A stretch of DNA of 34,068 nt from Anaerovorax odorimutans (lineage in GTDB: Bacteria; Bacillota; Clostridia; Peptostreptococcales; JAAYPU01), in contig JAENZQ010000033.1 of NCBI GenBank assembly GCA_016841185.1, positions 1-34,068 on the forward strand. The letters run 5' to 3'. Below, one piece after another: positions 8,298-23,934 of this stretch (positions are counted from its first letter, which is position 1; every line of letters starts with the position of its first letter). The translations under genes were made by a program, and so were the position numbers. The notes beneath the pieces were generated by a model. The model had not been told where the DNA came from. It searched no databases and saw only the letters and a program-made list of their open reading frames with translations.

Positions 8298-8364
8298 TTG
8301 ACATTGGGAAAATTTAGAATATAATAAAAATGAGAATAAGTTCAATTGCTGAACAAATGTAAAA
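8298..8364 (+). promoter_or_regulatory. Promoter and putative SorC operator of operon 1
   Basis: TTGACA 8298-8303, a 16-bp spacer and TATAAT 8320-8325 form a strong sigma-A promoter. Downstream are an inverted repeat GTTCA-ATTGC-TGAAC (8340-8354) and the box TGAACAAATGTAAAA (8350-8364), placed to block transcription. The promoter at 14259 has the same hexamers, spacer length, TTTAGAATATAAT block and identical 15-base box at the same distance. A common regulator is inferred, most likely the SorC protein at 14348. Confidence 0.8.
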
Positions 8365-8395
8365 GTAATATAAAAAAAGAAAGCAGGTTATCTTT

Positions 8396-9190
8396 ATGTA
8401 TAAAATGGTTGCCATTGATTTAGATGATACCTTACTTAATGATGAGTTTGAGATTTCGGAGAAGAACAAACAGGCTGTCCAAAAGGCTATTGAAAAAGGA
8501 GTTGTTGTGTGCATTATTTCTGGAAGAAGTTTCAGTTCTGTTAAAAATTATTTGAGCGATTTAAAAATATCCTATTTATGCGGAAGCATAAACGGTGCAA
8601 TGATTACCGATCCGGCGAGCGGAAAAAATGTATTTGTCCAGACAGTTGATGATAAAGTTACAGGTGAAATATTAAAGGAAATTGAACTTCTGGGAATGCA
8701 TGTCAACTACTATCATGATCATAAAGTTGTTTGCAGTGAAAAAAATGATATCGCTGAAGATTATATAAAATTGACCGGTGTTGAAATTGAGTTTGTGGGC
8801 TCACTTCAAAAATACCATGAGGGAGCATCAGCAGGAAAACTTTTGTTGATAGATCATAGAGATACACTTGAATCATTAAGAAAGAAATTTCAAAAAACCT
8901 ACGGCGAACAGATAAACATTACTTTTTCCAAACCTACGTTTTTAGAAATTTACAGCAAAAAGGTTTCTAAAGGAGAAGCTGTAAAGACGATCGCCCAATA
9001 TTACGGTTTTGAGCAGGGGGAGATTATCGCGATTGGGGATGGTGAAAATGATATGTTTATGATTGAATATGCCGGATTAGGTGTTGCTATGGGCAACAGT
9101 AATGAAACGGTTCAGTCAAGAGCCGACTTTGTTACGCTTACAAATAATGAAGGTGGCGTGGCTCATGTATTGGAAAAGTTTATCCTTTAA
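8396..9190 (+). CDS. Cof-type HAD-IIB family phosphatase
   Basis: The protein is 264 aa. HAD motif I is DLDDTLL near residue 8 (nucleophile Asp and acid/base Asp), motif II is IISGRS, and the C-terminal motif IV is GDGENDMFMIEYAG; a C2B cap lies between. Cof/YidA-type enzymes dephosphorylate sugar phosphates and related metabolites in the cytosol. It is the first gene of the putative SorC-controlled operon, with E1-alpha starting about 35 bp after its stop. It may remove phosphate from an intermediate or prevent toxic sugar-phosphate build-up. Specificity cannot be read from sequence because this family is promiscuous. Confidence 0.9.
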   Translation: MYKMVAIDLDDTLLNDEFEISEKNKQAVQKAIEKGVVVCIISGRSFSSVKNYLSDLKISYLCGSINGAMITDPASGKNVFVQTVDDKVTGEILKEIELLGMHVNYYHDHKVVCSEKNDIAEDYIKLTGVEIEFVGSLQKYHEGASAGKLLLIDHRDTLESLRKKFQKTYGEQINITFSKPTFLEIYSKKVSKGEAVKTIAQYYGFEQGEIIAIGDGENDMFMIEYAGLGVAMGNSNETVQSRADFVTLTNNEGGVAHVLEKFIL

Positions 9191-9225
9191 TGCCGAAATT
9201 ATAAATGGACAGGAGGGAAAAGGAA

Positions 9226-10182
9226 GTGGATGAAAAAGAAAAGATGGTAGAAATGTATAAGCGGATGAATGAAGCGCGATCATTCGAGGAAAAAGTAAGT
9301 TTCTTTTTTGCGAGAGGAATGGTACATGGAACGACTCATTTATCAGTTGGAGAGGAAGCATCAGGAGTGGCCTCCTGCATGGCCTTAGAGGCATATGACC
9401 TGATTACATCGACTCATAGAGGGCATAGCCAGGTGATCGGAAAAGGAATTGATTTGAATAAGATGATGGCTGAGCTGCTTGGAAAAGCTACAGGTTATTG
9501 TAAGGGAAAAGGCGGATCGATGCATATAGCAGATATAAAAGCGGGTAATTTAGGAGCTAACGGTGTAGTAGGAGGCGGACACGGAATAGCAGTAGGAGCG
9601 GCCTTGACTCAGAAGTTGAAAAAAACAGGAAAGATTGTTCTCTGCTTTTTCGGAGACGGAGCAGCCAATGAAGGGAGCTTTCATGAAGCGGTTAATTTGG
9701 CATCAATATGGAGGCTGCCGGTAATCTTCTTTTGTGAAAACAATTTTTATGGGATGTCCATGCCTTTATCAAAACATATGAATATCAAAGACATTGTGAA
9801 ACGAGCAGAAGCGTATGGGATACCCGGGTATATAGTAGATGGAAATGATGCTGTAGCGGTTTACAGGAAAGTCAAAGAGGCTGCTGAGTATGTAAGAAGC
9901 GGGAAAGGGCCTGTATTAATCGAGAGTAAGACCTATAGATGGCTGGGACATTCAAAGAGTGATGCAAATGTGTACAGAACTAAAGAAGAAATCGTTGAGT
10001 GGAAGAAAAAATGCCCTTTGAAGAGATTTAGAGCATATCTTCTAAAAGAGGAGATCCTGACGGAAGAAGAAGCAGATGCCATAGAGCGGAAAGCTAAGGA
10101 GGATATAGAAAAAGCAGTAGAATATGCAAACAACAGCCCTGAACCGCCCATCGGTACACTTTTGGAAGATGTGTATGCATAA
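9226..10182 (+). CDS. acoA: TPP-dependent acetoin dehydrogenase-type E1 alpha subunit
   Basis: The protein is 318 aa from GTG 9226. AGGAGG at 9211-9216 is ideally placed for this start, whereas ATG 9205 would leave the site inside the coding region. The E1-alpha signature is clear: STHRGHSQVIGKG, GKGGSMHIAD, and the TPP/Mg motif GDGAANEGSFHEAVNLASIW followed by FFCENNFYGMS. The short length without an N-terminal extension fits the acetoin dehydrogenase branch more than pyruvate or branched-chain enzymes, but substrate is not fixed by these motifs. It forms the E1 heterotetramer with the next gene. E1 decarboxylates a 2-oxo acid or cleaves an acyloin/diketone and passes the acyl group to lipoyl-E2. 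Confidence 0.88.
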   Translation: MDEKEKMVEMYKRMNEARSFEEKVSFFFARGMVHGTTHLSVGEEASGVASCMALEAYDLITSTHRGHSQVIGKGIDLNKMMAELLGKATGYCKGKGGSMHIADIKAGNLGANGVVGGGHGIAVGAALTQKLKKTGKIVLCFFGDGAANEGSFHEAVNLASIWRLPVIFFCENNFYGMSMPLSKHMNIKDIVKRAEAYGIPGYIVDGNDAVAVYRKVKEAAEYVRSGKGPVLIESKTYRWLGHSKSDANVYRTKEEIVEWKKKCPLKRFRAYLLKEEILTEEEADAIERKAKEDIEKAVEYANNSPEPPIGTLLEDVYA

Positions 10183-10195
10183 GGGGGAATAGAAA

Positions 10196-11176
10196 ATGAG
10201 AGAAATAACATATGCAGAAGCTATACGGGAAGCTATGAGTGAAGAAATGCGCAGAGACGAGAATGTATTTCTGATGGGAGAAGATGTTGGACTTTATGGC
10301 GGCGCATTTGGAGTTACCGTCGGAATGTTTGAAGAATTCGGAGAAGAGAGAGTAAGAGATACGCCAATATCAGAAGCCGTCATAGCAGGTGCAGCAGCAG
10401 GAGCTGCAGTGACAGGCATGAGGCCCGTAGCAGAAATAATGTTTATGGATTTTACTACTATTGCAATGGATTCACTTGTAAACCAAGCAGCAAAGATGAG
10501 ATATATGTTTGGGGGAAAAGCAAAAGTGCCTATGGTATTGAGGTGTCCTGCAGGTTCGGGAACCGGAGCGGCGGCGCAGCATTCCCAAAGCCTTGAAGCA
10601 TGGTTTTGTCATGTGCCGGGGCTTAAGGTAGTGGCTCCGTCCACACCTGCGGATGCCAAAGGTCTATTAAAATCAGCCATTAGAGATGATAATCCGGTTA
10701 TTTTTGTCGAACAGAAGTTATTGTACAGAAAAAAAGGAATAGTGCCTGAAGAAGAATTTATTATCCCCTTAGGGAAAGCAGATATCAAACGGAAAGGGAC
10801 AGATGTTACCATTATCACTTATGGCAGGATGGCAGAAAGCGTATTATCGGCAGCGGCAGATATGGAACAGGAGGGGATCAGTATAGAGGTTATAGACCCA
10901 AGGACACTGGTACCTTTAGATAGAGAAACCATTATTGAATCTGTAATCAAAACAGGAAGGGCTGTTGTTGTACATGAAGCGGTAAAGACAGGCGGCTACG
11001 GAGGAGAGATCGTATCAGCGATTAGTGAGAGTGAAGCATTTGACTACCTGGATGCGCCTGTCCTTCGGATAGCCGGCAAAGATGTCCCTATTCCCTATAA
11101 CCCTGAATTGGAAAAAGCAGCGGTTCCAAGTGTGGCAGAGATCAAAGAGGCTGTACGGAAAGTGATGAATCGATAG
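10196..11176 (+). CDS. acoB: TPP-dependent acetoin dehydrogenase-type E1 beta subunit
   Basis: The protein is 326 aa. It has the transketolase pyrimidine domain ([15 protein letters not shown] near the N-terminus, with [17 protein letters not shown]) and a C-terminal transketolase domain ([27 protein letters not shown]). The [26 protein letters not shown] region is typical of E1-beta chains and includes active-site histidines. A GGGGGA ribosome binding site precedes ATG 10196, 13 bp after acoA. The alpha and beta chains make the TPP sites at their interface. No acoX and no sigma-54 activator AcoR accompany the genes, unlike classical acetoin operons. Confidence 0.9.
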
Positions 11177-11188
11177 GGAGGTGCCCAT

Positions 11189-12496
11189 ATGGCAGTAGAA
11201 GTCATCATGCCTAAAGCTGGTATGGCAATGGAAGAAGGGACCATTGTAAAATGGTATAAAAAAGAAGGTGATCAGGTTGAAGCAGGAGAAGCTCTGCTGG
11301 AAATTATTACTGATAAAGTAAACATGGAAGTGGAAGCGGAAGTTTCAGGAGTACTCCTTAAAATAGTAGGTAAAGAAGGGCAGGTGCTGCCTGTGTTTAC
11401 TCCCATTGCGTATATAGGAAAGGAAGGGGAAGAAGTAGAGACAGAAACTACAGGAAAGAATCCTGAACAACCTGAAAAAAAAGAAAAAGAAGAATTAAAA
11501 AAGGAAAATGTGTCGGTCTCAGAAAAAAAGGTACGGGCGACACCGGCAGCAAGAAAAACAGCAAAAGAAAGTGATCTGGAGCTAAGAGATATAAAAGGCA
11601 GCGGTCCAAAAGGCAGGATACAAAAAAAAGATGTTTTATCCTTAAGAACAAGTGTGAATAAGATGACACCTCTTGCAGAGAAAATAGCAGCCCTTGAAGG
11701 AGTGGACCCTGCTCTTCTGGAAGGAAGCGGATATGACGGAAAAATTACCAAAGAAGACGTTATGAAGCAGATCGGTCAACGGACAAAAGAAAAGGGAAAA
11801 CCGGTAAAAGGAAAAATCGTGCCGCTAACGCCTATGAGAAAGACAATCGGAAAAAGAATGAGCGACTCTTTTTTCACGGCTCCGACGTTTACTCTGAACA
11901 TAGAAGTGGATATGAGGAAAACAAAGGAGATGAAAAATACTTTAAAAGCTGCCATAGAAGAAGAAACAGGGTTTACTCCGACTATAACGGATATTCTTGT
12001 TATGGCTTGTGCAAAAAACTTAAAAAAACACCCTGCAGTCAATACTGCCATAACAGAAGAAGGGCTGTTGATTTATGACGATGTGAATATTGCTTTTGCA
12101 GTAGGATTGGAAGAAGGTCTTTTTGTTCCGGTCATTAAAAACGCTGATAAATTGACATTGAGTGAGATCGTGACCATTTCAAGAGAATTGGTCTCTAAAG
12201 CAGAACACATGAGTCTGAGGCCGGATGAGCAGGAAGGCAGCACCTTTACCATAAGTAATTTGGGGATGTACGGCATATCTCATTTTAACCCCATCATCAA
12301 TCCGCCCAATAGTGCTATATTAGGTGTCGGCGCTATAACGGACCGGCCCATAGTAAGAAAAGGGGAGATCCGGATCAATCCTATGATGAATTTGAGCATG
12401 ACTATTGACCACAGGGCTATCGACGGGGCTCCGGGAGCCAGATTCATGCAGAATCTTAAGGAACTCCTTGAAGACCCGATAAAATTGTTAACATAG
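11189..12496 (+). CDS. acoC: Dihydrolipoamide acyltransferase E2 with two subunit-binding domains
   Basis: The protein is 435 aa. Residues 1-78 form one lipoyl domain with the lipoylated lysine expected at K43 (ITDKVNMEVEAE). A charged Glu/Lys-rich linker follows (about 80-114). Two sequences like the peripheral subunit-binding domain come in tandem: about 115-150 (ATPAARKTA...GSGPKGRIQKKDV) and 158-193 (TPLAEKIA...GSGYDGKITKEDV). The catalytic acyltransferase domain runs from about 215 to the end, with the DHRAIDG motif (H408, D412). E2 transfers the acyl group from lipoamide to CoA and forms the complex core. The ligase that could lipoylate it is in operon 2. Two binding domains rather than one is notable. 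Confidence 0.92.
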   Translation: MAVEVIMPKAGMAMEEGTIVKWYKKEGDQVEAGEALLEIITDKVNMEVEAEVSGVLLKIVGKEGQVLPVFTPIAYIGKEGEEVETETTGKNPEQPEKKEKEELKKENVSVSEKKVRATPAARKTAKESDLELRDIKGSGPKGRIQKKDVLSLRTSVNKMTPLAEKIAALEGVDPALLEGSGYDGKITKEDVMKQIGQRTKEKGKPVKGKIVPLTPMRKTIGKRMSDSFFTAPTFTLNIEVDMRKTKEMKNTLKAAIEEETGFTPTITDILVMACAKNLKKHPAVNTAITEEGLLIYDDVNIAFAVGLEEGLFVPVIKNADKLTLSEIVTISRELVSKAEHMSLRPDEQEGSTFTISNLGMYGISHFNPIINPPNSAILGVGAITDRPIVRKGEIRINPMMNLSMTIDHRAIDGAPGARFMQNLKELLEDPIKLLT

Positions 12497-12514: not shown

Positions 12515-13921
12515 TTGACAACAGGTATGAATAAAGACTATGACGTTATTGTGATTGGTGGAGGACCTGCAGGGTATGCAGCAGCTATTAAAGCTTCTCA
12601 GATGGGAGGGAAGGTTGCATTAATAGAGAAATACAAAGTAGGAGGAACTTGCTTGAACAGGGGATGTATTCCTACAAAGACCTATATAAGGAATGCAGAA
12701 ATGATTGGCATCTTAGAAAGGGCAGAAAACAGAGGCATTATGATAAACGACCCGGATTTTAATCTGGATATGGCAAAAATCATCCAATACAAAAATAACG
12801 TAGTAAACACTTTGACGGATGGCGTGTCGGGGCTTTTGAAAAGTTATGGCATTACGGTATATATCGGACAAGGGAGGCTGAAGAAAGACAAAAGTGTGGA
12901 GATTGACGGAAAGGACATTATCAGCGGAAAAGCTGTTATTTACGCAGGGGGGTCAAAAGTATCACGACTGCCTATTAAAGGAATAGAAAATCCTTTGATC
13001 ATGACAAGCGATGAAATACTTGATCTTGCTGAAGTGCCAAAGTATTTAACGATTATCGGAGGCGGTGTTATAGGGGTAGAAATGGCTGAGATATTCAGTG
13101 CATACGGGAGTCGGATCACAATAATAGAATTATGTGACCGGATACTGCCACAGATGGACAAAGAAATCTCCGAAGTTCTTACTAAAATATTGAAGACAAA
13201 GGGTATCCGTATTTTGACAGGGGCTCGAATCGATAAAATAAAAGAAGAAAAGAGAGGCCTCAAGTGCTTTTTCTCGGACGGCAGCGGGGTAGAATGCGAC
13301 AGGGTATTGATTTCAACAGGCAGAATCCCTGATTTATCTGCAGTGGGGGAACTGGATTTCAAAACAGATAAAGGCAGGATACAAGTGGATGCGTATATGA
13401 AAACAAGCATTGAAGATATCTATGCACCGGGGGATATTAATGGCAAAAACATGTTGGCACATGCTGCTTTTAAAATGGGAGAGACAGCCGCCCAAAATGC
13501 TATGGGTGAAAATGTCAAATCAAATCTTAGATTTGCACCCGGATGTGTCTATACCATTCCCGAAATAGGTACCGTTGGATTAACTGAGGAAGAAGCAAAG
13601 AAAAAGTACGATGATATATGTACGGGAAGATTTAATTTTATTGCCAACGGAAGAGCTCTTTCATCTGGAGAGACAAAAGGATTTGTAAAAGTCATAGGGG
13701 ATAGAAAATACGGTGAGATTCTCGGCGTGCATATCCTAGGGCCCCAGGCAGCGGAAATTATCAATGAAGCATCCGTATTAATGTCATCTGAAGTAACATT
13801 GGAAGAAGTTTCGAGTTTCATTCACGGGCATCCTACTTATTCGGAAAGCTTTATGGAAGCCTGTGCAGATGCACTGGGAAGATCGATTCATCTGCCTAAA
13901 AAATTGATTAAAAGGAGTTGA
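12515..13921 (+). CDS. lpdA: Dihydrolipoyl dehydrogenase E3
   Basis: The protein is 468 aa from TTG 12515, chosen because AAGGAGG at 12501-12507 is 7 bp upstream; ATG 12527 is too distant. The FAD-binding motif GGGPAGYAAA is at about 15-24 and the redox disulfide GGTCLNRGCIPTKT supplies C46 and C51. The NAD-binding motif IIGGGVIGVEMAE and the C-terminal dimer-interface motif HGHPTYSE, with H439 and E444 as the catalytic dyad, are present. It reoxidises the dihydrolipoyl group of E2 and makes NADH. It has no fused lipoyl domain. Its place right after E2 marks it as the dedicated E3 of this complex. Confidence 0.95.
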   Translation: MTTGMNKDYDVIVIGGGPAGYAAAIKASQMGGKVALIEKYKVGGTCLNRGCIPTKTYIRNAEMIGILERAENRGIMINDPDFNLDMAKIIQYKNNVVNTLTDGVSGLLKSYGITVYIGQGRLKKDKSVEIDGKDIISGKAVIYAGGSKVSRLPIKGIENPLIMTSDEILDLAEVPKYLTIIGGGVIGVEMAEIFSAYGSRITIIELCDRILPQMDKEISEVLTKILKTKGIRILTGARIDKIKEEKRGLKCFFSDGSGVECDRVLISTGRIPDLSAVGELDFKTDKGRIQVDAYMKTSIEDIYAPGDINGKNMLAHAAFKMGETAAQNAMGENVKSNLRFAPGCVYTIPEIGTVGLTEEEAKKKYDDICTGRFNFIANGRALSSGETKGFVKVIGDRKYGEILGVHILGPQAAEIINEASVLMSSEVTLEEVSSFIHGHPTYSESFMEACADALGRSIHLPKKLIKRS

Positions 13922-14258: not shown

Positions 14259-14325
14259 TTGACATTTATAATATTTAGAATATAATGAAAATGAGAAAGT
14301 TTTCACACTGTGAACAAATGTAAAA
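14259..14325 (+). promoter_or_regulatory. Promoter and putative SorC operator of operon 2
   Basis: TTGACA 14259-14264, a 16-bp spacer and TATAAT 14281-14286. A perfect palindrome TTCACA-C-TGTGAA lies at 14302-14314 and runs into the shared box TGAACAAATGTAAAA (14311-14325), which starts 30 bp after the start of TATAAT, exactly as at 8320/8350. It lies directly upstream of the SorC gene, consistent with autoregulation. Confidence 0.82.
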
Positions 14326-14347
14326 ATATTTTTGCTGGAGGAAAAGC

Positions 14348-15301
14348 ATGAAAAAAGTCACAGGGGATATTAGATTAATTTATAAATGCTGTATGCTTTA
14401 TTATGACGACCAGTTAAGCCAACAGCAAATAGCAGAAATTTTAGGGATATCACGTCCTACGGTATCCAGACTCTTGAAAGAAGGAAAAAGGCGGAGTATC
14501 GTAAAAATCGAAATTGATCATTCCTATAATTCCGGCTATCATCATCTGGAAAGGGAATTGGAGAAAAAATTTGGACTCAAAGAAGTTATTATAGTCGATG
14601 ACAAAAACGATCCGTATATTCAAAAGCTGGAAATAGGGAATGCTACAGCAAAATATCTGGAAAGAACCTTAAAGGATGACGATTGTGTCGGCGTATCCAT
14701 GGGAACCACCATTAAGGAGATTGCTCAGTACGTGGAATACAATGAGGCGATAAATATCACCTTTATTCCATTGATCGGGGGCGTAGGTCAAGTAGGGATA
14801 CACATACATCCAAATCAAATCGTTATGGACCTTGCAAAAGCGTTTAAAGGAAATGTAAAGCTTTTACACGCGCCAGCCGTATTATCAGACAAAAATGTTA
14901 AAGAAAACCTGAAGGAAGATAAAGGTATAAAAGCAATACTTGAAGAGATTGACAAAGTAAATGTTGCAATCGTCGGAATTGGCGGAAAGATGAACAAAGG
15001 CTCAACCTTAGTGGATACAGGGTATTATGATGAAGAGGACTTAAAGCTGATAGAGAGTCAAAATGCCGTTGGGGACATCTGTCTTCAGTTTTATGATATA
15101 AAAGGAGACAGTTCCCAATATGTATACAATGAAAAAGTCTTTGGAATAGAGCTCAACCAGCTTAAAAAAATTGATAAAGTTATTGGAGTAGCAGCGGGAG
15201 GAGAAAAGGTCAAAGGTATTATCGGCGCAATTAACGGTCGATATATTAACATTCTGGTCACCAATTACAGCTGCTGTATGGAACTGCTGAAATACAGATA
15301 A
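14348..15301 (+). CDS. SorC/DeoR-type sugar-binding transcriptional regulator
   Basis: The protein is 317 aa. The N-terminal helix-turn-helix (about residues 20-45, QLSQQQIAEILGISRPTVSR) is followed by the C-terminal sugar-phosphate sensing domain of the SorC family (segments GNATAKYLE, GVSMGTTIKEIAQ, IPLIGGVGQVG, VAIVGIGG). SorC-family proteins usually bind a phosphorylated sugar that controls their tetramer on DNA. GGAGGA precedes ATG 14348. As first gene of the PTS operon, with matching operators before both operons, it is the likely regulator of the whole set. Whether it represses or activates is not visible, but an operator downstream of the -10 favours repression. Confidence 0.9.
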   Translation: MKKVTGDIRLIYKCCMLYYDDQLSQQQIAEILGISRPTVSRLLKEGKRRSIVKIEIDHSYNSGYHHLERELEKKFGLKEVIIVDDKNDPYIQKLEIGNATAKYLERTLKDDDCVGVSMGTTIKEIAQYVEYNEAINITFIPLIGGVGQVGIHIHPNQIVMDLAKAFKGNVKLLHAPAVLSDKNVKENLKEDKGIKAILEEIDKVNVAIVGIGGKMNKGSTLVDTGYYDEEDLKLIESQNAVGDICLQFYDIKGDSSQYVYNEKVFGIELNQLKKIDKVIGVAAGGEKVKGIIGAINGRYINILVTNYSCCMELLKYR

Positions 15302-15316: not shown

Positions 15317-15688
15317 ATGGAGAAAATTGCAATCATTGCTTTTTTGATGTTGATTGTACAGGGATTGTTTGCTTTTTATCAGGTAAAGCATTATCAAAAA
15401 CGCGCGTCTTATTTATCACAAAAAGGACTGATTGGAATTGGAAGAGAAAAAGGTATTTTCCAGGCAGGGAACCTTACAATTTTAGTCTGTGATAAGCAGG
15501 GGAGGATTGTTACGGCAGAAAAGATGGAGGGCTTGACTGTATTTTCGCGGTTTAAACCCATCAAAAATATCGAAGGTCGGTTCATTGAGCATATCAAGGA
15601 AGAATATCTAAAGAAAAACAAATATAAAATAGGGAAAAAGGCTATGCTGCAGGCCATCGAAGAGCTGGAGAATAAGGTAAAAGCTTAA
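15317..15688 (+). CDS. gutM: GutM family glucitol operon activator-like protein
   Basis: The protein is 123 aa. It has an N-terminal hydrophobic segment (about residues 4-20) and a short soluble region with GLIGIGREKG and a basic C-terminus. This matches the GutM (SrlM) family first known as an activator of the E. coli glucitol operon; its mechanism is poorly understood. It lies 15 bp after the SorC gene and before the EIIC gene, the place it usually holds in glucitol-type PTS operons. The predicted membrane segment is unusual for a DNA-binding activator and suggests a membrane-associated role. Family assignment is likely; function is by analogy. Confidence 0.8.
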   Translation: MEKIAIIAFLMLIVQGLFAFYQVKHYQKRASYLSQKGLIGIGREKGIFQAGNLTILVCDKQGRIVTAEKMEGLTVFSRFKPIKNIEGRFIEHIKEEYLKKNKYKIGKKAMLQAIEELENKVKA

Positions 15689-15760: not shown

Positions 15761-15800
15761 TCACAATAAATTATTTTTAATGTATGAAAGGAGTGTTTAT

Positions 15801-16343
15801 ATGCTAGGGTCCATTGCTAATCTTGCAGAAGGTTTTATAGGCCTGTTCAGACAAGGTGGAGAAACATTTATGGGATTGATGACAGGCATCCTTCCCACGC
15901 TGATTGTTTTGATCACTGCCGTAAACGCACTTATAAAAATTATCGGGGAGGAAAGGGTCAATAATCTGGCGAAATCCGCATCAAAGTATTTTCTTACAAG
16001 ATATACGGTGTTTCCTATTCTTGCCGTATTTTTTCTGACAAATCCAATGTGCTATTCTTTTGGAAAGTTTCTGGATGAAAAATATAAGCCGGCATTTTAT
16101 GATGCTGCAGTATCATTTGTACATCCCATAACAGGTCTTTTTCCACATGCAAATGCGGGGGAACTATTTGTTTATATGGGGATCGCCCAGGGAATTGAGC
16201 AACTTGGATTACCTCTTGGGCAATTAGCTGTCCGATACTTTATAGTGGGCGTTATTGTTATTTTCATCAGAGGTGTCCTCACGGAAAGGATCACGGCTAT
16301 TATGATGAAGCAAAAAACTGAAAAAATGACGGCCAAAGCATAG
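15801..16343 (+). CDS. srlA: PTS glucitol/sorbitol-type EIIC component
   Basis: The protein is 180 aa from ATG 15801, with AAAGGAG at 15787-15793; the in-frame ATG 15780 lies upstream of that site. It is an integral membrane protein of the Gut family, with several hydrophobic segments and the typical [20 protein letters not shown] region. In this family the membrane domain is split: this EIIC half pairs with the C half fused to EIIB in the next gene. It takes up a hexitol or other polyol during phosphorylation. Glucitol is the model substrate, but neighbours here include no sorbitol-6-phosphate dehydrogenase of the usual type, so a different polyol is plausible. Confidence 0.93.
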
Positions 16344-16354: not shown

Positions 16355-17329
16355 ATGTATAAAGCGGTCAAGATTGAAAGAGGAAGCAGCGGCTGGGGTG
16401 GCCCATTGATTATCAAGCCTACGGAAAAAAGAAATAAGATTGTCTCGGTAACCGGAGGAGGAATAGACCCGATAACTAAAAGAATTGCGGAATTGACCGG
16501 AGCAAAAGCGGTAGATGGTTTTAATACCGGTGTTCCCGACGATGAAATAGCTGTCGTCGTTGTTGACTGTGGAGGAACTGCCCGATGTGGCGTTTATCCC
16601 AAAAAAAGGATTTATACAGTCAATCTGACTCCCGTTGGGCAATCAGGGCCTTTGGCACAATTCATCACCGAAGATATTTATGTATCGGGAGTAAAAGAGA
16701 ATAATATCAGTATCTATGAAGGTAACGTTGACACAATTGAAGCATCAGATACACGTTCCGGATTTGATTTTAAGACTGAAGAAAAAGAAAAAGAACGGCC
16801 AAGAGGCGGTCTTTTGACGCGTATAGGAAAAGGTGTAGGTGGTGTTGTTGGTAAGCTTTATCAGGCCGGAAGAGAAACCATTGACCAGGTTATTAAAAAT
16901 ATTATCCCATTTATGGCTTTTGTCAGTATGCTTATTGGTATTATCATAAAATCAGGCATTGGCGACTGGATCGCTAAGACAATTTCTCCGTATGCCGGAA
17001 CTTTGCCTGGTTTACTGATCATCTCTGTCATATGCGCCATTCCTGTATTATCACCATTATTAGGGCCCGGTGCAGTTATTGCCCAAGTCGTCGGAGTACT
17101 GGTCGGAGTAGAAATAGGAAAAGGAGCTATACCGCCACAATACGCACTGCCTGCTTTATTTGCTATTGACCCGCAGGTTGGATGTGATTTTATCCCTGTT
17201 GGATTAAGCCTGGGAGAAGCAGAACCTGAAACCATCGAAGTCGGAGTTCCTGCAGTTCTTATTTCCCGCCTGATCACAGGGCCTATATCCGTATTGATTG
17301 CCTTTGCTTTTAGTATCGGATTGTACTAA
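16355..17329 (+). CDS. srlE: PTS glucitol/sorbitol-type EIIBC component
   Basis: The protein is 324 aa. The N-terminal EIIB domain (about residues 1-125) carries the phosphorylatable cysteine in [10 protein letters not shown] (C72 is the likely site, C78 nearby). A linker rich in Lys/Glu follows, and the C-terminal half (about 180-324) is a hydrophobic EIIC2 domain with [20 protein letters not shown]. It accepts phosphate from EIIA and transfers it to the incoming polyol. AGGAGG precedes ATG 16355, 11 bp after EIIC. A strong hairpin separates it from the EIIA gene. Confidence 0.94.
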
Positions 17330-17420: not shown

Positions 17421-17783
17421 ATGACATATAAGGCAATTATTACTAAAATCGGAGCGTTAGCATTGGATTTCTTATCTGACCGTATCCTTGTTATTTTCAA
17501 TGAAAATGCTCCTGAAGATTTAGCTGAGATCTCTGTGCTTCATACCATAGAGAAAGTACCCCGTGATATTCGTGAAGGAGATGTATTTATCATTTCAAAT
17601 AAAGAATATCCTGTAACAGCAGTTGGGGATGAAGCAAATAAAACATTTAAATCAATGGGGCACTGCACTTTAAAATTTACAGGATCACGAAAGGCAGACC
17701 TTCCCGGGTATATCGTATTAAAAGGAGATGAAATACCCGATATTCATATCGGTGATACTATTGAAGTTAAATATAATTTATAA
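17421..17783 (+). CDS. srlB: PTS glucitol/sorbitol-type EIIA component
   Basis: The protein is 120 aa from ATG 17421, with GGAGG at 17411-17415; the frame is open further upstream but lacks a matching site and overlaps EIIBC. It matches the EIIA-Gut family, with the phosphorylated histidine likely H41 (ISVLHTIEK) and a C-terminal beta-rich region ending HIGDTIEVKYN. It receives phosphate from HPr and gives it to the EIIB cysteine. The gene is 15 bp before the SAF-domain oxidoreductase. With EIIC and EIIBC it makes a full permease. Confidence 0.92.
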   Translation: MTYKAIITKIGALALDFLSDRILVIFNENAPEDLAEISVLHTIEKVPRDIREGDVFIISNKEYPVTAVGDEANKTFKSMGHCTLKFTGSRKADLPGYIVLKGDEIPDIHIGDTIEVKYNL

Positions 17784-17798: not shown

Positions 17799-19088
17799 AT
17801 GATTGGCATAAATAACAGACTGCTACATTTAGAAGAACAGGGGGAAAAAATATTAGCAGGAATCGTAGGAGCGGGACAGATGGGAAAAGGTATGGTTAGC
17901 CAGATGGTGCTGATGAAAGGGTTGAAGCCGGCTGCCGTTGTGGATATTGATATAAATTGTGCTATTAATGCCTATAAAAATGCAGGTCTTACGGAGGATG
18001 ACTTCAAAATAGTCGATACCCCTGCTAAAGCGAATCTATGGATTGAAAGAGGAAAATATATTGTTTCTGAGAATGCTGAAGTTGTAACCAAAACCGACAG
18101 GATCGACGTAGCAGTAGATGCGACAGGGGTCCCTGAAGTAGGAGCCAAAGTTGCTTTGGATTCTATTTTTAACAAAAAACATATAGTTATGCTCAATGTT
18201 GAAACGGACATTGTAATAGGTCCGATTTTAAAAAAATTAGCCGATAGTGCAAATGTTGTATATACAGGTTCCGCCGGTGATGAACCGGGAGCAGTAAAAG
18301 AATTGTATGATTTTGCTGATTCATTGGGATTTGATGTTCTTGTTATCGGAAAAGGGAAAAACAATACTTTGGATTATGACTGCAATCCCGACTCAGTATC
18401 AGAAGAAGCAACGCGCAGAGGAGTCAGCCCTAAGATGCTGACCTCTTTCAAGGATGGGACCAAAACAATGGTGGAACTGACTGCTATGTCCAATGCAACC
18501 GGCTATACGGCTGATGTAAGAGGAGGCCATGGTGCATCAGGTAAGGTAGAGGATTTGACCAGAATATTAAGACTAAAAGAAGAAGGAGGGATACTGAACA
18601 AATACAAGGTCGTTGATTTCATTAACGGAGTTGCACCCGGCGTATTTGTTATAGTATCCAGTAAACTGCCTGAAATCAACCATGAAATGGAATATCTCAG
18701 TATGGGGCCAGGGCCAAATTACGTTCTATACAGGCCCTACCACTTATGCAGCCTTGAGACACCCTTATCAGTAGTAAGAGCGGTATTGGATCAACAACCG
18801 ACCATTGTTCCTATGGGCCCGCCTATATCAGAGACCATTACCGTAGCCAAAAAAGACCTGAAAAGCGGAGAATATTTGGACGGCATTGGAGGGTATACGG
18901 TTTATGGAACTATTGAACGGGCCGATATTACGAGGGAATTAGATGCGCTGCCATTAGGTCTTGTAAATAAGAAAACCAAATTGAGAAGGGATATCCAAAA
19001 AGGAGAACTGATCACTTATGATATGGTCGAACTGGATAAAGATTCACTTATTGTTCAATTAAGAAAATTACAGGATACATTAATGTAG
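17799..19088 (+). CDS. SAF-domain NAD(P)-dependent oxidoreductase (predicted homoserine dehydrogenase-like)
   Basis: The protein is 429 aa. The N-terminus has a Rossmann nucleotide-binding motif (GIVGAGQMGKG, glycines at 24, 26 and 29) and an Asp-rich second strand (VVDID), then a homoserine-dehydrogenase-like middle region (VDVAVDATGVPEVGA-type segment; YTGSAGDEPGA). The C-terminal part, from about residue 350, is a SAF domain (TVAKKDLKSGEYLDGIGGYTVYG). This is the architecture of the predicted homoserine dehydrogenase/SAF group, found next to Gut-type PTS genes in various Firmicutes. Its reaction is not established to my knowledge. Here it is the only dehydrogenase candidate for the imported phosphorylated polyol, so I infer oxidation, perhaps with isomerisation, of that compound. 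It is not a housekeeping homoserine dehydrogenase judging by context. Confidence 0.85.
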   Translation: MIGINNRLLHLEEQGEKILAGIVGAGQMGKGMVSQMVLMKGLKPAAVVDIDINCAINAYKNAGLTEDDFKIVDTPAKANLWIERGKYIVSENAEVVTKTDRIDVAVDATGVPEVGAKVALDSIFNKKHIVMLNVETDIVIGPILKKLADSANVVYTGSAGDEPGAVKELYDFADSLGFDVLVIGKGKNNTLDYDCNPDSVSEEATRRGVSPKMLTSFKDGTKTMVELTAMSNATGYTADVRGGHGASGKVEDLTRILRLKEEGGILNKYKVVDFINGVAPGVFVIVSSKLPEINHEMEYLSMGPGPNYVLYRPYHLCSLETPLSVVRAVLDQQPTIVPMGPPISETITVAKKDLKSGEYLDGIGGYTVYGTIERADITRELDALPLGLVNKKTKLRRDIQKGELITYDMVELDKDSLIVQLRKLQDTLM

Positions 19089-19162: not shown

Positions 19163-20149
19163 ATGCGTTATTTGATCAATGAATCTTTAGATCCATATTA
19201 TAATTTAGCTCTGGAAGAATTTCTTCTGACAAAGGCGGATGTCAATGAAGACTATTTTATGCTATGGCGCAACAACCCGGCTATCGTTGTAGGAAAGCAC
19301 CAAAATACAATAGAGGAAATCAATCTGAAATATGTAGAAGAAAAAAAAATCCATGTTGTAAGAAGGCTATCCGGCGGAGGAGCGGTCTATCATGATCTTG
19401 GAAATTTAAATTTCACTTTCATTATCAATCATTATTTGGACAATCGGTTTGATTTTAAAAAATTTACTGAGCCTGTTGTCCGTGCTCTTCTAAGAATGGG
19501 TGCCAAAGCATATTTCAATCATAGAAACGACTTGGAAATCGATGGAAAAAAATTTTCCGGAAATGCTCAGTATATAAAAAATGGCAGACTATTACATCAT
19601 GGAACATTGCTGTACAATTCAAAAATAGATACGCTTGTAAAAGCACTTAATGTATCAGATGATAAGATAATATCAAAAGGGATCAAGTCTGTGAAAAGCA
19701 GGGTAACCAATATTGCTGAGCACATAAAAGGAGAAGCAGATATCTTTCAATTCAAGTCAACGCTTTTGGAATATCTACAGGAAGAAATGGGCCCTTTTGA
19801 TGTACTTTCGACAACAAAAGAAGATAAAGTAAAAGCAGAAGAAATTATGAACAACAGATATACAAAATGGGAATGGAATTATGGAGAATCACCGGAATTC
19901 AATAAAAGGAAGAAAAAAAAGCTGGAATATGGAACAGTCGAGGCACTGATAAATGTGTTCGAGGGTTATATTCGTCAGATCAGGTTCTATGGCGATTTTT
20001 TCAATACGAGAGATGTCGAAGAGATAGAATCACTGTTAGAAGGGCAAAGATATGAGGAAAAATCTATCCGTGAAGTTTTATCAAAGATAGAGATTAACAA
20101 ATACTTTATAGGATTTGATCAGCATCAGTTAATAGAGGTTTTATTTTAA
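19163..20149 (+). CDS. lplA: Lipoate-protein ligase A
   Basis: The protein is 328 aa from ATG 19163, placed 6 bp after AAGGAGG. The family signature RRLSGGGAVYHDLGNLNFTF and the lysine-bearing DLEIDGKKFSGNAQ segment for lipoyl-AMP binding are clear. A C-terminal accessory domain (about residues 245-328) is present, as in E. coli LplA. It activates free lipoate with ATP and attaches it to lipoyl domains. Its likely target is the E2 of operon 1 (K43), which explains its presence in a PTS operon. It is the only lipoate gene in the window, so the cell may depend on salvaged lipoate for this pathway. Confidence 0.94.
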   Translation: MRYLINESLDPYYNLALEEFLLTKADVNEDYFMLWRNNPAIVVGKHQNTIEEINLKYVEEKKIHVVRRLSGGGAVYHDLGNLNFTFIINHYLDNRFDFKKFTEPVVRALLRMGAKAYFNHRNDLEIDGKKFSGNAQYIKNGRLLHHGTLLYNSKIDTLVKALNVSDDKIISKGIKSVKSRVTNIAEHIKGEADIFQFKSTLLEYLQEEMGPFDVLSTTKEDKVKAEEIMNNRYTKWEWNYGESPEFNKRKKKKLEYGTVEALINVFEGYIRQIRFYGDFFNTRDVEEIESLLEGQRYEEKSIREVLSKIEINKYFIGFDQHQLIEVLF

Positions 20150-20169: not shown

Positions 20170-21897
20170 ATGATAAAAGGAATTGCAGCATCCCCTGGAA
20201 TAGCAATAGGAGAGATATTCATTAAGAAAGAAGATGAAGCTGTAATAGAAAAAACCAAAATCAAGGATGCGGAAAAAGAAATAAAGAAGCTGGAGGAAGC
20301 GGTGAAACAAAGCAAAACTGAACTCCGGGAGATTTATGAAAAGACGCTTAAAAATATAGGTAAAGAAGAAGCTAAAATCTTTGAAGCCCACCAATTGATC
20401 CTCGAAGATCCTGAACTGTTAGGAAAAACAAAGGAAATGATTTCAAAAAATAAAGAGAATGCTGCTTGTGCCCTGAATAAAATAACGGAAGAATTTCTGT
20501 CTGTCTTTGAAGCTATGGGAGAAGGGTATTTAAGAGAGCGGGCGGCGGATTTAAAAGATGTGGTGGAGCGCGTCTCCAGGAAACTTGTGGGAGTTGGCGG
20601 TACTGACTTCAACAGTATAAAAGAAAGAAGTATTATTGTAGCAAGAGATCTGACGCCCTCGGATACGGCTCAAATGGATAAAGAAAAAGTTATTGGATTT
20701 GTGACAGAGACAGGAGGCAGCACTTCACATTCGGCAATTATGGCAAGGACAATGGAAATACCGGCTGTTACAGGGGTAAGTAATATTATGGGTCAAGTGG
20801 AAAATGGCGACTTGATTGTAATGGACGGCACTATTGGAGAAATCTGTATTCGCCCGGATAAAAAAACTTTAGATACATATGAAAAAAGAAAGACAAAATA
20901 TGAAGAAACCAAAAGAAAACTCAAAACAATGATAGGAAAAAAAACCCTAACTCACGACAATCATAAAGTAGAAATTTCATCCAATATCGGAACACCGGAA
21001 GATCTGGAAGGCGTGGTTCTAAATGATGGAGAAGGCATAGGGCTGTTCAGGAGTGAATTTTTATATATGAACAGGCGGGAAGCTCCGGGAGAAGAAGAGC
21101 AATATGAAGCCTATAAAAAAGCCGCTCAGACTATGGAGGGAAAACCTGTTGTAATTCGGACGCTGGATGTAGGAGGAGATAAAGAGATCAGTTATTTATC
21201 CCTTCCGAAGGAAATGAATCCCTTTCTCGGGTATCGTGCGATCCGCGTATGTTTGAGAGAGGTTGAACTGTTTAAAACCCAATTAAGAGCGCTTCTTCGT
21301 TCGAGTGCCCATGGAAATATAAAAATAATGTTTCCTATGATATCAAGCATAGAAGAGGTAAGACGGGCAAAATCAATATTAAAAGATTGCAAAGAAGAAC
21401 TAAGAAAAGAAGGGGCACGATTTGATGAAAGCATTGAAGTGGGAATCATGATAGAAATTCCGGCAGCAGCATTAATATCCGATATGCTATCAAAAGAAGT
21501 AGACTTTTTCAGTATCGGAACCAATGATTTGATTCAATACACCACAGCGGTAGACCGGATGAATAATACGATCAGCAACCTGTATACACCATATCATCCT
21601 GCACTATTGAGGCTGATCAAAATGGTAATCGACAACGGCCATAAAGAAGGAAAATGGGTAGGTATGTGCGGAGAATCGGCAGGAGATTTCAAATTGATTC
21701 CCATATGGTTGGGGATGGGACTGGACGAATTCAGTATGAGTGCCGGATCTATCCTTAGAGCAAGGTGGATCATTAATCAACTTTCCAAAGAAATGATGGA
21801 AAAAGAGGCAGAAAAAGTTCTGGGCATGCTTTCTTCTGAGGAGATAGAGTCTTATCTGCATGAGCTGGCCATAAAAATGGGTATTGATAAAGTATGA
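20170..21897 (+). CDS. ptsI: PTS Enzyme I (phosphoenolpyruvate-protein phosphotransferase)
   Basis: The protein is 575 aa, full length. The N-terminal domain carries the phosphorylated H187 in GGSTSHSAIMARTMEIPAV. The C-terminal PEP-binding barrel has the GIGLFRSEFLYM motif, the VIRTLDVGGDK motif and the active cysteine motif GMCGESAGD. It takes phosphate from PEP and gives it to HPr. ATG 20170 has AAAGGAGAGG upstream and starts 20 bp after lplA. It ends operon 2. Enzyme I usually pairs with ptsH in a general operon; here HPr is 6 kb away at the end of operon 1. Either these are dedicated copies or the organism's only ones. Confidence 0.96.
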   Translation: MIKGIAASPGIAIGEIFIKKEDEAVIEKTKIKDAEKEIKKLEEAVKQSKTELREIYEKTLKNIGKEEAKIFEAHQLILEDPELLGKTKEMISKNKENAACALNKITEEFLSVFEAMGEGYLRERAADLKDVVERVSRKLVGVGGTDFNSIKERSIIVARDLTPSDTAQMDKEKVIGFVTETGGSTSHSAIMARTMEIPAVTGVSNIMGQVENGDLIVMDGTIGEICIRPDKKTLDTYEKRKTKYEETKRKLKTMIGKKTLTHDNHKVEISSNIGTPEDLEGVVLNDGEGIGLFRSEFLYMNRREAPGEEEQYEAYKKAAQTMEGKPVVIRTLDVGGDKEISYLSLPKEMNPFLGYRAIRVCLREVELFKTQLRALLRSSAHGNIKIMFPMISSIEEVRRAKSILKDCKEELRKEGARFDESIEVGIMIEIPAAALISDMLSKEVDFFSIGTNDLIQYTTAVDRMNNTISNLYTPYHPALLRLIKMVIDNGHKEGKWVGMCGESAGDFKLIPIWLGMGLDEFSMSAGSILRARWIINQLSKEMMEKEAEKVLGMLSSEEIESYLHELAIKMGIDKV

Positions 21898-22026
21898 TAG
21901 GAAAATATTATACAATAAGGCTGTTTTAAGATATAAAAGTATGAATCACGTTTTTTCCTATTAATATACCTTATGAGAAAAAAATAGGGTATAATTAAGA
22001 AATAATAAATAAAAGAGGTGTGTGCT

Positions 22027-22350
22027 ATGCAGATTACAAAGATGCAAGCAGAGCTGTTTTGTCTAAATTGTAATAAGGATACGCTTCACGAGGTGACATA
22101 TCTTGGGGAAAATATCGAGAAAATAACTTGTTTAGAGTGTGAGGCTTTTTTGGAAATCGATGAAAAATTAATATTGTCTTCTTATGTAGCAGAAATTTTT
22201 AGCAGAATCAAAACTAAACCTGAAAGAATGAGTAAAGAAAGTAAGGCCGACTTGTCAAAGTTTTTACGGTCAATACCCTTTCGTGTTGTGACAAAACCCT
22301 ATCGGATGATAAAGGAATTTAAAATCATTAAAGATATATCCCATGATTAG
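22027..22350 (+). CDS. Small zinc-ribbon protein of unknown function
   Basis: The protein is 107 aa. The N-terminal half has two CxxC pairs (FCLNCNK and ITCLECEA) that would form a zinc ribbon; the rest is Lys/Arg-rich and ends in helical sequence. I recognise it only as a conserved short Firmicutes-type protein with no assigned role. ATG 22027 is chosen over GTG 22018 because AGAGGTG at 22014-22020 serves as its ribosome binding site. A TATAAT at 21990-21995 suggests its own promoter, without a clear -35. A nucleic-acid-binding role is possible but unproven. Confidence 0.7.
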   Translation: MQITKMQAELFCLNCNKDTLHEVTYLGENIEKITCLECEAFLEIDEKLILSSYVAEIFSRIKTKPERMSKESKADLSKFLRSIPFRVVTKPYRMIKEFKIIKDISHD

Positions 22351-22498: not shown

Positions 22499-22921
22499 GT
22501 GAGAATAGCAGTCATTGACGGGCAAGGCGGCGGAATCGGAAAATCTGTTATTGAACAAATTCGGAGAACGATCCATAATGATATTGAAATCATTGCGTTG
22601 GGAACGAATTCCCTTGCGACCTCCAATATGTTCAAAGCAGGAGCCAACGAAGCGGCAACAGGTGAGAATGCCATCAGCGTTACATCTCAGCAAGTAGATA
22701 TTATCGTTGGACCATTGGCAATTATCTTTGCAGACTCTATGTTGGGAGAAATATCCCAGAATATTTCCGGTTCTATTGCAAGAAGCCCTGCTAAAAAAAT
22801 GCTTCTGCCGATGAACAGGTGCGGGGTGATGGTAGCAGGAATTAAAAACAAAGGGATTCAGGATATGATCAATGAAATTGTATATGAAATACAGGAAGAA
22901 ATAAAAAACCGCGAAGGTTGA
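22499..22921 (+). CDS. DUF3842 family protein
   Basis: The protein is 140 aa from GTG 22499, with GGAG 7 bp upstream. The N-terminus RIAVIDGQGGGIGKSVIEQI is the hallmark of DUF3842 and looks like a glycine-rich nucleotide-binding loop. Two cysteine/alanine-rich segments (VDIIVGPLAIIFADSMLGE; MNRCGVMVAGI) follow. No function is established. It is commonly near ECF-transporter and DUF1893 genes, as here. Its stop codon lies in the loop of a strong terminator hairpin, so transcription into the next gene is probably only partial. Confidence 0.85.
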   Translation: MRIAVIDGQGGGIGKSVIEQIRRTIHNDIEIIALGTNSLATSNMFKAGANEAATGENAISVTSQQVDIIVGPLAIIFADSMLGEISQNISGSIARSPAKKMLLPMNRCGVMVAGIKNKGIQDMINEIVYEIQEEIKNREG

Positions 22922-22982: not shown

Positions 22983-23531
22983 GTGAATGTAAAAAATTTG
23001 GTTTATAGCAGTTTATTTATTGCTTTAGGAGTTCTTATACCTCAGATATTTCATCTTACAGGGGGGCCTGCGTTGGGAGGCATTTTTCTTCCAATGCACT
23101 TTCCTGTTCTTATAGCAGGGTTTTTATGCGGGCCCATAACAGGCTTGGTTACAGGGATCGTATCTCCTTTGCTCAGCAGCGCTGTTACAGGAATGCCTCC
23201 TGTGCCAAGGCTTTGGTTTATGATTGTAGAGCTGGCGGTTTATGGTATTACATCAGGAGTATTGTATTTTAAAATGAAAAAAAACATATTTCTTTCTTTA
23301 GCCGCTGCAATGGTGCTGGGAAGGTTGGCTTATGGCATTGTATTTTTGGTTGTGGTAAACTTGTTTGGAATAACCTTACCTTTTGGATTAGGATTAGCTG
23401 CATCTTTAGCAAAAGGTGTTCCGGGGATATTTTTGCAGATCATTATAATCCCTATTGTGATACGTGCTTTAGAAAGGAGTTCTTTTAATAATGAAGGAAT
23501 TGAAAACAGCAGAAAATCTGTTGAAAAATAA
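22983..23531 (+). CDS. ECF transporter S component
   Basis: The protein is 182 aa from GTG 22983, with GGAGG at 22971-22975. It is very hydrophobic with about six membrane segments and glycine/proline-rich turns (GGPALGGIFLPMHFPVLIAG; GLVTGIVSPLLSSAVTGMPP), as in the substrate-binding S components of energy-coupling factor vitamin and metal transporters. It would dock on a shared EcfA/A'/T module encoded elsewhere. The substrate is not evident; no riboswitch or biosynthesis gene is nearby to indicate one. Its end overlaps the DUF1893 gene by 41 bp, so the two are tightly coupled. Confidence 0.85.
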   Translation: MNVKNLVYSSLFIALGVLIPQIFHLTGGPALGGIFLPMHFPVLIAGFLCGPITGLVTGIVSPLLSSAVTGMPPVPRLWFMIVELAVYGITSGVLYFKMKKNIFLSLAAAMVLGRLAYGIVFLVVVNLFGITLPFGLGLAASLAKGVPGIFLQIIIIPIVIRALERSSFNNEGIENSRKSVEK

Positions 23532-23934
23532 CCGGTATTCATGTGTCATCAGTAATGGAAAAGAGATACTTTATACATCTGTAGAAAAAGGTATAAAGCC
23601 TTTATTGGAATTCTATGATAATAATCAATTTAAAAACAGCAGGCTATATGTTGCCGATAAAATCATTGGTAAAGGAGCAGCTTTTCTTTTGGTTTTATTT
23701 TCTGCCAAAGGTTTGTATACACCTGTCATCAGCGAGAGTGCTTTGGATCTATTACAAAGATACGGTATTGCAGTGAAATATGATAAAATCGTTTCTTATA
23801 TTAAAAACAGGACAGGGGACGGAAGATGTCCTATCGAATCCGCAGTCATCGATGAAGATGACCCTAAAACCGCTTATAATAAAATTGTACAAAAAATCAA
23901 AGAACTTACAAAAGAAATTACAACAGAAAATTAA
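23491..23934 (+). CDS. DUF1893 (TM1506-like, deaminase-fold) protein
   Basis: The protein is 147 aa. It belongs to the DUF1893 family, whose Thermotoga representative TM1506 has a cytidine-deaminase-like fold. Cysteine and glycine-rich motifs are seen at CVISNGKEI, IIGKGAAFLLVL and GRCPIES. No reaction has been assigned. It starts inside the end of the ECF S-component gene with AAAGGAG 11 bp upstream. The coupling suggests it acts on, or senses, the compound the S component binds. Confidence 0.85.
   Translation: MKELKTAENLLKNNRYSCVISNGKEILYTSVEKGIKPLLEFYDNNQFKNSRLYVADKIIGKGAAFLLVLFSAKGLYTPVISESALDLLQRYGIAVKYDKIVSYIKNRTGDGRCPIESAVIDEDDPKTAYNKIVQKIKELTKEITTEN

Follow-up and report, generated by a model that had tools for sequence, protein, structure and literature searches.

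The 34,068-nucleotide stretch of Anaerovorax odorimutans DNA analyzed here (the window; contig JAENZQ010000033.1 of assembly GCA_016841185.1) encodes a homolog of DRL, the type II reductoisomerase (DXR-II) of 1-deoxy-D-xylulose 5-phosphate (DXP), within a predicted regulon of two units, HAD-E1a-E1b-E2-E3-HPr and SorC-GutM-EIIC-EIIBC-EIIA-DRL-LplA-PtsI (Table 1). These operons probably, albeit with considerable room for doubt, serve the catabolism of 2-C-methyl-D-erythritol (ME) or of a very closely related 2-C-methyl-tetritol; the substrate, the direction and the products are what we infer from the gene content. In the proposed scheme, the phosphotransferase system (PTS) would import ME as 2-C-methyl-D-erythritol 4-phosphate (MEP), DRL with NAD+ would oxidize and rearrange MEP to DXP, and an acetoin-dehydrogenase-like E1 with thiamine pyrophosphate would attack the DXP carbonyl and release glyceraldehyde 3-phosphate. 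The two-carbon unit would then pass via the lipoyl-E2 to acetyl-CoA, the lipoamide being re-oxidized by E3; LplA would charge E2, and both transcription units would be under the SorC regulator, whose ligand is probably a phosphorylated intermediate. DXP is, like acetoin, a methyl acyloin (CH3-CO-CHOH-R). According to passages of PMC3424233, purified pyruvate dehydrogenase (PDH), as cited there, yields 1-deoxyxylulose when given pyruvate and glyceraldehyde, and aceE mutants raise DXP, so the E1 superfamily appears able to handle the C-C bond in question.

The DRL gene starts 15 bp downstream of the gene for the glucitol-type EIIA, and EIIA, EIIC, EIIBC and GutM all score above the Pfam cut-offs, in agreement with an earlier note, made from the sequence alone, that had placed this open reading frame (ORF) directly after EIIA in a PTS operon. 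That note left the reaction of the protein unassigned and described it as resembling homoserine dehydrogenase, with a C-terminal SAF domain, while doubting that it was the biosynthetic enzyme. The family can now be named: in the Pfam and NCBIfam scans of the window proteins (E 0.001), the protein matches DRL_cat (PF21135) with 222.9 bits against a cut-off of 27, whereas the SAF domain is marginal (21.3 bits, cut-off 21), and no homoserine dehydrogenase family of either database, and no NCBIfam model of any kind, matched it. Its sole sequence relatives in the PDB at E <=0.001 are 3UPL/3UPY, the DRL of Brucella abortus (3.4e-101; 41% identity over 426 aligned residues), described in the title as the enzyme of the first committed step of the MEP pathway; the DXP-to-MEP direction of DXR-II is the known one, according to passages of PMC3847144. 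A chance match is excluded because this E value is accompanied by recurrence of the neighborhood: a PTS EII gene is found within 10 kb of DRL in 55 of 80 related loci, the best 80 of the 566 found in a contig scan of named genomes.

The structure prediction called for in the note gave an AlphaFold2 model (mean pLDDT 94.3) that superimposes on 3UPY with a Z score of 55.1 over 427 residues at 1.4 A; below 3UPY in the ranking, canonical DXR follows at Z 16-19. The similarity to homoserine dehydrogenase is real at the level of the fold (3mtj, Z 16.5, 271 residues, 15% identity), so that part of the earlier description stands; with no family match and a full-length DRL fit at Z 55, the probability that the protein is a homoserine dehydrogenase is practically nil, and this candidate was ruled out. 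The residues named in passages of PMC3847144 as lining the substrate site or the dimer cavity, or as distinguishing DXR-II from DLO1/DLO2, a subset of the 28 and 34 sites given there, were compared directly. Brucella G121, E174, F178, K191, K193, T229, H250, R320 and Y322 are conserved (G115, E168, F172, K185, K187, T223, H244, R312 and Y314 in the window protein), and among them are the DXR-II-specific G121, T229, H250 and R320 and the substrate lysines K191 and K193; V351, another residue of the DXR-II-specific set, is conservatively replaced by I343. None of the 122 DRL rows that we compared shows a change at K185, K187, T223 or R312. By sequence and modeled fold, the gene is thus assigned to DRL/DXR-II and not to homoserine dehydrogenase.

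Each of the two units is headed by a perfect sigma70-like promoter inside a 70-nucleotide repeat, the two copies of which are 79% identical. The core TTTAGAATATAATNAAAATGAGAA, searched with up to 3 mismatches allowed, matches the window twice, both times exactly (0.01 expected), and the 15-mer TGAACAAATGTAAAA, a putative SorC-type operator, is found exactly at the two promoters only in the entire genome, with one further place at one mismatch. In the 80 related loci, the 300-bp zones upstream of system genes comprise about 4.5% of all bases; they contain 13 matches with at most one mismatch, and the remaining sequence contains 5, compared with a mean of 0.1 in the upstream zones (maximum 2) for 41 control words. 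With up to two mismatches, the numbers are 26 upstream and 21 elsewhere, compared with 1.0 and 11.1 for the controls. In several Bacilli, the motif (<=2 mismatches) lies immediately 5' of E1a, and it is present also 5' of a SorC-E1a-E1b-E2-lpdA cluster on a Clostridioides difficile plasmid. The earlier note recognized the PTS part of this context and overlooked the E1a-E1b-E2-E3 genes, HPr, lipoate ligase and PtsI, which together indicate the MEP/DXP substrate pair and a thiolytic second step. Two of its other suggestions are borne out. DRL stands in place of the usual sorbitol-6-phosphate dehydrogenase, given that none of the genes flanking the window PTS encodes a short-chain dehydrogenase/reductase (SDR), and DRL probably catalyzes the first step on the imported phosphate ester. 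Likewise, in the 53 related loci where a crude motif scan saw PTS genes, the same scan found no SDR resembling sorbitol-6-phosphate dehydrogenase up to 4 kb from them.

The association of DRL with the E1 genes recurs in Bacillota and Alphaproteobacteria. E1a is found within 10 kb of DRL in 17 of the 80 related loci (like the counts of PTS EII above and of the aldolase trio below, this one comes from an ORF picking that recovered DRL in 80/80 loci). In a sample of 398 Bacillota genomes, which yielded 42 DRL matches in 38 genomes besides the Anaerovorax one, E1a lies within 15 kb of DRL in 19 of the 42 matches and within 300 bp in 13; DRL neighbors account for 11 of the best 15 E1a matches outside the own genome; and an E1a with at least 54% identity is present in 20 of the 38 DRL genomes vs 13 of the 360 DRL-free ones (the own-genome rows, 1 DRL and 3 E1a, are excluded from these linkage counts, the total still being 398). 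In genome G096, the genes follow one another without interruption as SorC-GutM-EIIC-EIIBC-EIIA-DRL-E1a-E1b-E2-E3-small Cys protein-PtsI. Gene order in G399 is identical, except that no EIIA ORF was picked and that E2 is divided between two ORFs. On alphaproteobacterial plasmids, DRL is directly followed by E1a-E1b-E2 in 6 of the 6 regions read, and the importer varies: a glucitol PTS on the Nitratireductor, Terrarubrum and Rhizobium K1/93 plasmids, an ABC transporter with a sugar kinase in Rhizobium N324 and Sinorhizobium meliloti Rm41, and no obvious sugar importer in the Aminobacter plasmid stretch. In Priestia aryabhattai, an MFS transporter and an FGGY kinase accompany DRL and the E1-E2-E3 genes. 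The S. meliloti Rm41 cluster includes lipA, and the window includes lplA.

Phylogenetic analysis shows that the E1 subunits found next to DRL form a group of their own. In the joint tree of E1a and E1b (53 rows), 31 DRL-linked and 5 unlinked rows comprise one clade (bootstrap/SH-aLRT 95/99), and 4 acetoin dehydrogenases, labeled as such by their neighbors (a sigma54 activator, acetoin reductase, butanediol dehydrogenase or an AcoX-like NAD kinase), form a separate clade (100/100). The same two clades are recovered with E1b (DRL-linked clade of 33+5 rows, support 91) and with E1a (36+5 rows, support 87). A row is counted as DRL-linked when a DRL ORF is in the same locus or, for three loci, within 15 kb; rows shorter than 250-270 aa were excluded, the pdhA-named L160 was scored as unlinked, as was L161 in those trees for which it passed, and L040, L134 and L156-L162 have long branches. 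The E1b tree places the clade with the acetoin dehydrogenases as sister to the DRL-linked one, and three solved PDH chains, which do not form one group, branch outside these two clades; the E1a and joint trees do not resolve the order of these groups. The five unlinked members come from G198 and G420 (with DRL elsewhere in the genome), the C. difficile plasmid, G351 and G411.

Database names are of little help here. The window E1a scores 363.4 bits with the PDH model TIGR03182, below its cut-off of 393.85, and E1b passes the cut-off of NF006667, a subfamily model that carries the PDH name; TIGR03182 is also the best model for two acetoin dehydrogenases, again with scores below the cut-off. These labels therefore discriminate little, and the NCBIfam name 'pyruvate dehydrogenase' was rejected, as was the name acetoin dehydrogenase, given that the E1 lies outside that clade in the trees. 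From the sequence data, we describe the complex as acetoin-dehydrogenase-like and do not class it as an acetoin dehydrogenase because its E1 belongs to the separate 36-row clade. Two further E1a-E1b-E2-E3 sets in the own genome (contigs C18, L166, and C20, L167) adjoin sigma54 activators of 672 and 701 aa with PAS or GAF domains, as in acetoin operons. The C. difficile plasmid cluster (L120:5977-11897), SorC-E1a-E1b-E2-lpdA of the DRL-linked clade, lacks a DRL within the stretch that was read; in a different C. difficile strain, a PTS-DRL locus is present (L066).

A different set of genes recurs next to DRL in 16 of the 80 related loci, namely, a trio of a class II ketose-bisphosphate aldolase, a triose-phosphate isomerase (TIM)-like protein and YjbQ/UPF0047, which adjoins PTS-DRL mostly without E1 (L035, L037, L067, L068, L073, L080, L085, L086, L090, L109, L111, L112, L114 and others; also L170:13392-15461) and might be a second downstream route. 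E1a and the aldolase occur together in 1 of the 80 loci, and G303 likewise has both. Fsa-type aldolases can join hydroxyacetone and glycolaldehyde phosphate. A gene of the transaldolase/fructose-6-phosphate aldolase family adjoins the module in five loci (PF00923 in L168:13737-14381, L169:15385-16032, L172:4198-4842 and L175:225-869; annotated fsa in L117:13901-14554), and an Fsa-type aldolase in this position is possibly another route to DXP. The trio variants, together with the Fsa-transketolase variant of Ligilactobacillus, suggest that related operons feed other phosphorylated sugars, and a glucitol-type PTS may carry other polyols. These observations lend weight to the alternative that DRL acts on another polyol phosphate, of the erythritol, threitol or apiitol type, and the E1-E2-E3 complex on another acyloin. 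We consider this alternative unlikely, given the four invariant DRL residues listed above, the need of an acetoin-type complex for a methyl ketone, and the genomes, discussed below, in which no candidate for MEP formation other than an E1-linked DRL is visible.

In Rossmann folds, an acidic residue closing the second strand is the usual mark of NAD(H) use. In the window DRL, this strand ends with Asp49 (VVDIDI), which suggests an NAD-type enzyme. Such a residue is present in 35/35 E1-linked, 18/18 YjbQ-trio-linked, 30/32 PTS-only and 22/37 no-context rows (among the 122 rows some genomes are present twice, and the no-context rows include loci with only 1.5 kb of flank) or, by distinct sequences, in 35/35, 17/17, 29/30 and 21/36, respectively. 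The 15 non-acidic no-context rows have Ser, Asn or Ala, often preceding Arg, similarly to LSARRLP of Brucella; many no-context loci are short, and when at least 4 kb is available on both sides, 2 of 8 no-context rows are acidic and 6 are not. Motif and context are associated (Fisher p 1.3e-7, ignoring kinship). Both kinds are encoded on one contig of G356, the Asp copy in PTS-DRL-E1-E2-E3 and an Asn-Arg copy adjoining EIIA, the small Cys protein and PtsI. In a FastTree phylogeny of the 122 rows, rooted on Brucella and built without DLO sequences, the E1-linked DRLs are spread over alphaproteobacterial, Bacilli, thermophilic clostridial, Tissierella-type and window-like sequences, and the trio-linked ones belong mainly to the Selenomonad and Lachnospiraceae part.

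The cofactor motif bears also on a scheme in which 1-deoxy-D-xylulose is imported: the PTS would yield DXP directly, most of it for cleavage by the complex, and some of the DXP would be turned into MEP by DRL. This scheme employs the same intermediates and the known direction of DRL (PMC3847144, in passages); we nevertheless hold it to be very unlikely because DRL would be dispensable for such catabolism, yet is the constant neighbor of the E1 clade, and because an NAD-type motif fits oxidation better.

The isoprenoid genes provide a further angle on ME catabolism as the function of the module. The Anaerovorax genome encodes DXS (819 bits), DXR-I (517.6 bits) and IspG, so DRL is not needed there for isoprenoids; ispD and an IspF-family gene lie upstream of the operon in the window itself. 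Elsewhere, ispD-like matches are found five ORFs upstream of DRL in L035, L088 and L094. Among the 42 DRL-bearing genomes, DXR-I is present in 25 and absent from 17; IspG is matched in 41, above the cut-off in 38; and the full N-terminal domain of DXS (>=389 bits) is found in 22, all within the 25 that have DXR-I (G242, G274 and G354 have DXR-I without this full domain). None of the 17 DXR-I-less genomes has a DXS over the TIGR00204 cut-off; in 16 of them PF13292 is weak (<=75 bits) or missing, with a partial match of 240 bits in G258, and IspD is above the cut-off in 16. Four genomes, G096, G309, G235 and G399 (two of these being one contig), have IspD and IspG, no DXR-I, and a sole DRL match that is E1-linked; no other protein that could form MEP is visible in these genomes, which ties E1-linked DRL to DXP and MEP. 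More broadly, DRL with IspD and IspG above the cut-off, and no DXR-I or full DXS found, was recorded in G058, G085, G096, G138, G174, G208, G235, G256, G260, G285, G309, G356, G399 and G439.

These numbers could be taken to indicate that the window DRL is a second isoprenoid enzyme, redundant with DXR-I and parked in a sugar operon: 17 of the 42 genomes lack DXR-I and, in passages of PMC3847144, complementation of a dxr-deficient strain is described for 11 proteins of the DXR-II clade. For Anaerovorax, with DXS and DXR-I in place, such redundancy is disfavored, and the NAD-type motif and the apparent co-regulation with a catabolic complex make it quite improbable in general. In addition, the 100% complete genome G303 encodes DRL, SorC, PTS and E1a-E1b-E2, and has no DXS, DXR-I or IspG match and no IspD above the cut-off; the module there, therefore, does not serve isoprenoid synthesis by this route. 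For the same reason, absence of DXR-I alone was not accepted as proof of a biosynthetic role.

Several observations count against a pathway of ME degradation. The DXR equilibrium favors MEP, so reversal needs the pull of DXP cleavage. PTS and E1 are both missing within 10 kb in 24 of the 80 related loci (some contigs are short), a downstream enzyme is lacking in the vicinity of many PTS-linked DRLs, and the aldolase-TIM-YjbQ trio has no obvious fit to DXP. The E1 clade includes the five unlinked members, with no DRL listed in the genomes G351 and G411. E1-linkage requires 16 changes on the DRL tree and was often gained or lost; the linkage is either old or often re-made. Residue H244 is changed in 26 of the 122 DRL rows, E168 in 7, F172 in 5 and Y314 in 7. 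Finally, the shared operator could be a generic site of the SorC family.

If the ME pathway is real, DXR-II gains a second, degradative job, which would explain its retention beside a complete MEP pathway; the coexistence of DXR-II with DXR-I is left unexplained in the passages of PMC3847144. It would also explain the presence of DXR-II in Finegoldia magna and Anaerococcus prevotii without other MEP genes (same source, in passages). A breakdown route would be provided for ME, which, free and as glucosides, accumulates in Arabidopsis; plants and microbes also export methylerythritol cyclodiphosphate (both from passages of PMC11192765). A more general scenario, which we put forward as tentative and on balance doubtful, is that DXR-II is catabolic at its root: NAD-type DRL with the acetoin-dehydrogenase-like complex would form a widespread pathway from ME to acetyl-CoA and glyceraldehyde 3-phosphate, NADP-type copies such as that of Brucella would be later recruits to isoprenoid synthesis, and E1 with DRL, running forward, may supply DXP and MEP in bacteria with IspD and IspG that lack DXS and DXR-I. 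The 172 species with a MEP pathway without DXS, for which passages of PMC10663253 give no explanation, include some for which this is a testable candidate. No methylerythritol-degrading operon and no operon combining DRL with acetoin dehydrogenase was found in searches of an open-licence library; DXR-II, the glucitol PTS and acetoin dehydrogenase are already known, and their union as a degradative MEP/DXP route did not turn up in these searches.

Table 1. Features of the two predicted units and their surroundings in the window
Feature	Position	Strand	Basis or remark
IspF-family gene	3161-3628		PF02542 232 bits; upstream of operon
ispD	7518-8225		upstream of operon
Promoter/operator 1	8298..8367	+	TTGACA-16-TATAAT plus putative SorC-type operator TGAACAAATGTAAAA
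Cof-type HAD hydrolase	8396..9190	+	TIGR00099 201 bits, PF08282; first gene of unit 1
E1 alpha, acetoin-dehydrogenase-like complex (predicted)	9205..10182	+	PF00676; below PDH cut-off; DRL-linked E1a clade
E1 beta, TPP-dependent (TPP, thiamine pyrophosphate)	10196..11176	+	PF02779, PF02780; DRL-linked E1b clade
E2 with lipoyl, E3-binding and acyltransferase domains	11189..12496	+	PF00364, PF02817, PF00198
E3, dihydrolipoyl dehydrogenase	12515..13921	+	TIGR01350 518.7 bits, above cut-off
HPr-like phosphocarrier, 87 aa	13926..14189	+	PF00381 103 bits
Promoter/operator 2	14259..14328	+	sigma70-like promoter in 70-nt repeat
SorC/DeoR-type sugar-binding regulator	14348..15301	+	PF04198 237.9 bits
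GutM	15317..15688	+	PF06923
PTS EIIC, glucitol type	15780..16343	+	PF03608
PTS EIIBC, glucitol type	16355..17329	+	Pfam/NCBIfam
PTS EIIA, glucitol type	17421..17783	+	PF03829 (profile search on frame from 17418)
DRL/DXR-II homolog, predicted NAD-type	17799..19088	+	ATG start, 429 aa; Pfam, PDB sequence match, model fit
Lipoate-protein ligase LplA, would charge E2	19163..20149	+	PF21948, PF10437 (profile search on frame from 19160)
PtsI (EI)	20170..21897	+	PF02896, PF05524, PF00391
Small Cys-rich, Zn-ribbon-like protein	22018..22350	+	relatives in 19 loci

Some of the other genes of the regulon recur to varying extents. A counterpart of the HAD hydrolase is found in 7 of the 80 related loci, and EIIA in 46 (both counts from a different ORF picking, which recovered DRL in 74/80 loci); with a floor of 150 aa, EIIA is seen in 5/80 loci only, which is an undercount. 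The HPr-like gene falls below the 90-aa floor of the ORF list. The small Cys-rich protein, for which no Pfam family matched, likely belongs to the system; its relatives, of about 104-123 aa, are mostly encoded near DRL or PtsI (for example, L168:3256-3609 and L172:6869-7195), and in L171 the gene adjoins SorC and E1 without DRL. Past the operon, consecutive genes encode DUF3842, an ECF transporter S component and DUF1893 (22499-22921, 22983-23531 and 23491-23934), followed on the minus strand by an AlaX-like protein with tRNA_SAD and DHHA1 domains (24066-25259), a probable stand-alone alanyl-tRNA editing protein.

Compared with the known systems, the window combines familiar parts in a distinct manner. 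It shares EIIC, EIIBC, EIIA and GutM of the glucitol family with the srl/gut operons but has DRL where the SDR sorbitol-6-phosphate dehydrogenase would be; the srl/gut operon of Priestia megaterium NCT-2 is of the SDR-plus-transaldolase form. Among the 40 records listed of 77, the EIIB proteins of DRL-bearing alphaproteobacterial plasmids are at best 60-62% identical to the window EIIBC, compared with about 55-56% for the enterobacterial SrlE, although the DRL-bearing Pseudoroseomonas is likewise at 56%; the 8 best plasmid matches of EIIBC are all on replicons also found in the DRL list. Like AcoABCL, the window encodes E1a, E1b, a lipoyl E2 and E3 together; unlike it, the complex is linked to a PTS and DRL, the regulator is of the SorC type instead of a sigma54 AcoR-type activator, and the operon contains neither acetoin reductase nor butanediol dehydrogenase. 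With DXS and DXR-I, the proposed route would share the intermediates glyceraldehyde 3-phosphate, DXP and MEP, but would run in the reverse, degradative direction, with acetyl-CoA instead of pyruvate as the two-carbon end. The Brucella DRL, finally, is similar over its full length (41% identity), in the fold and in the substrate and dimer-cavity residues, and differs in having an Ala-Arg-Arg motif where the window protein has the NAD-type Asp49; the window copy belongs to a predicted PTS/lipoyl-complex regulon, in a genome that already has DXR-I.

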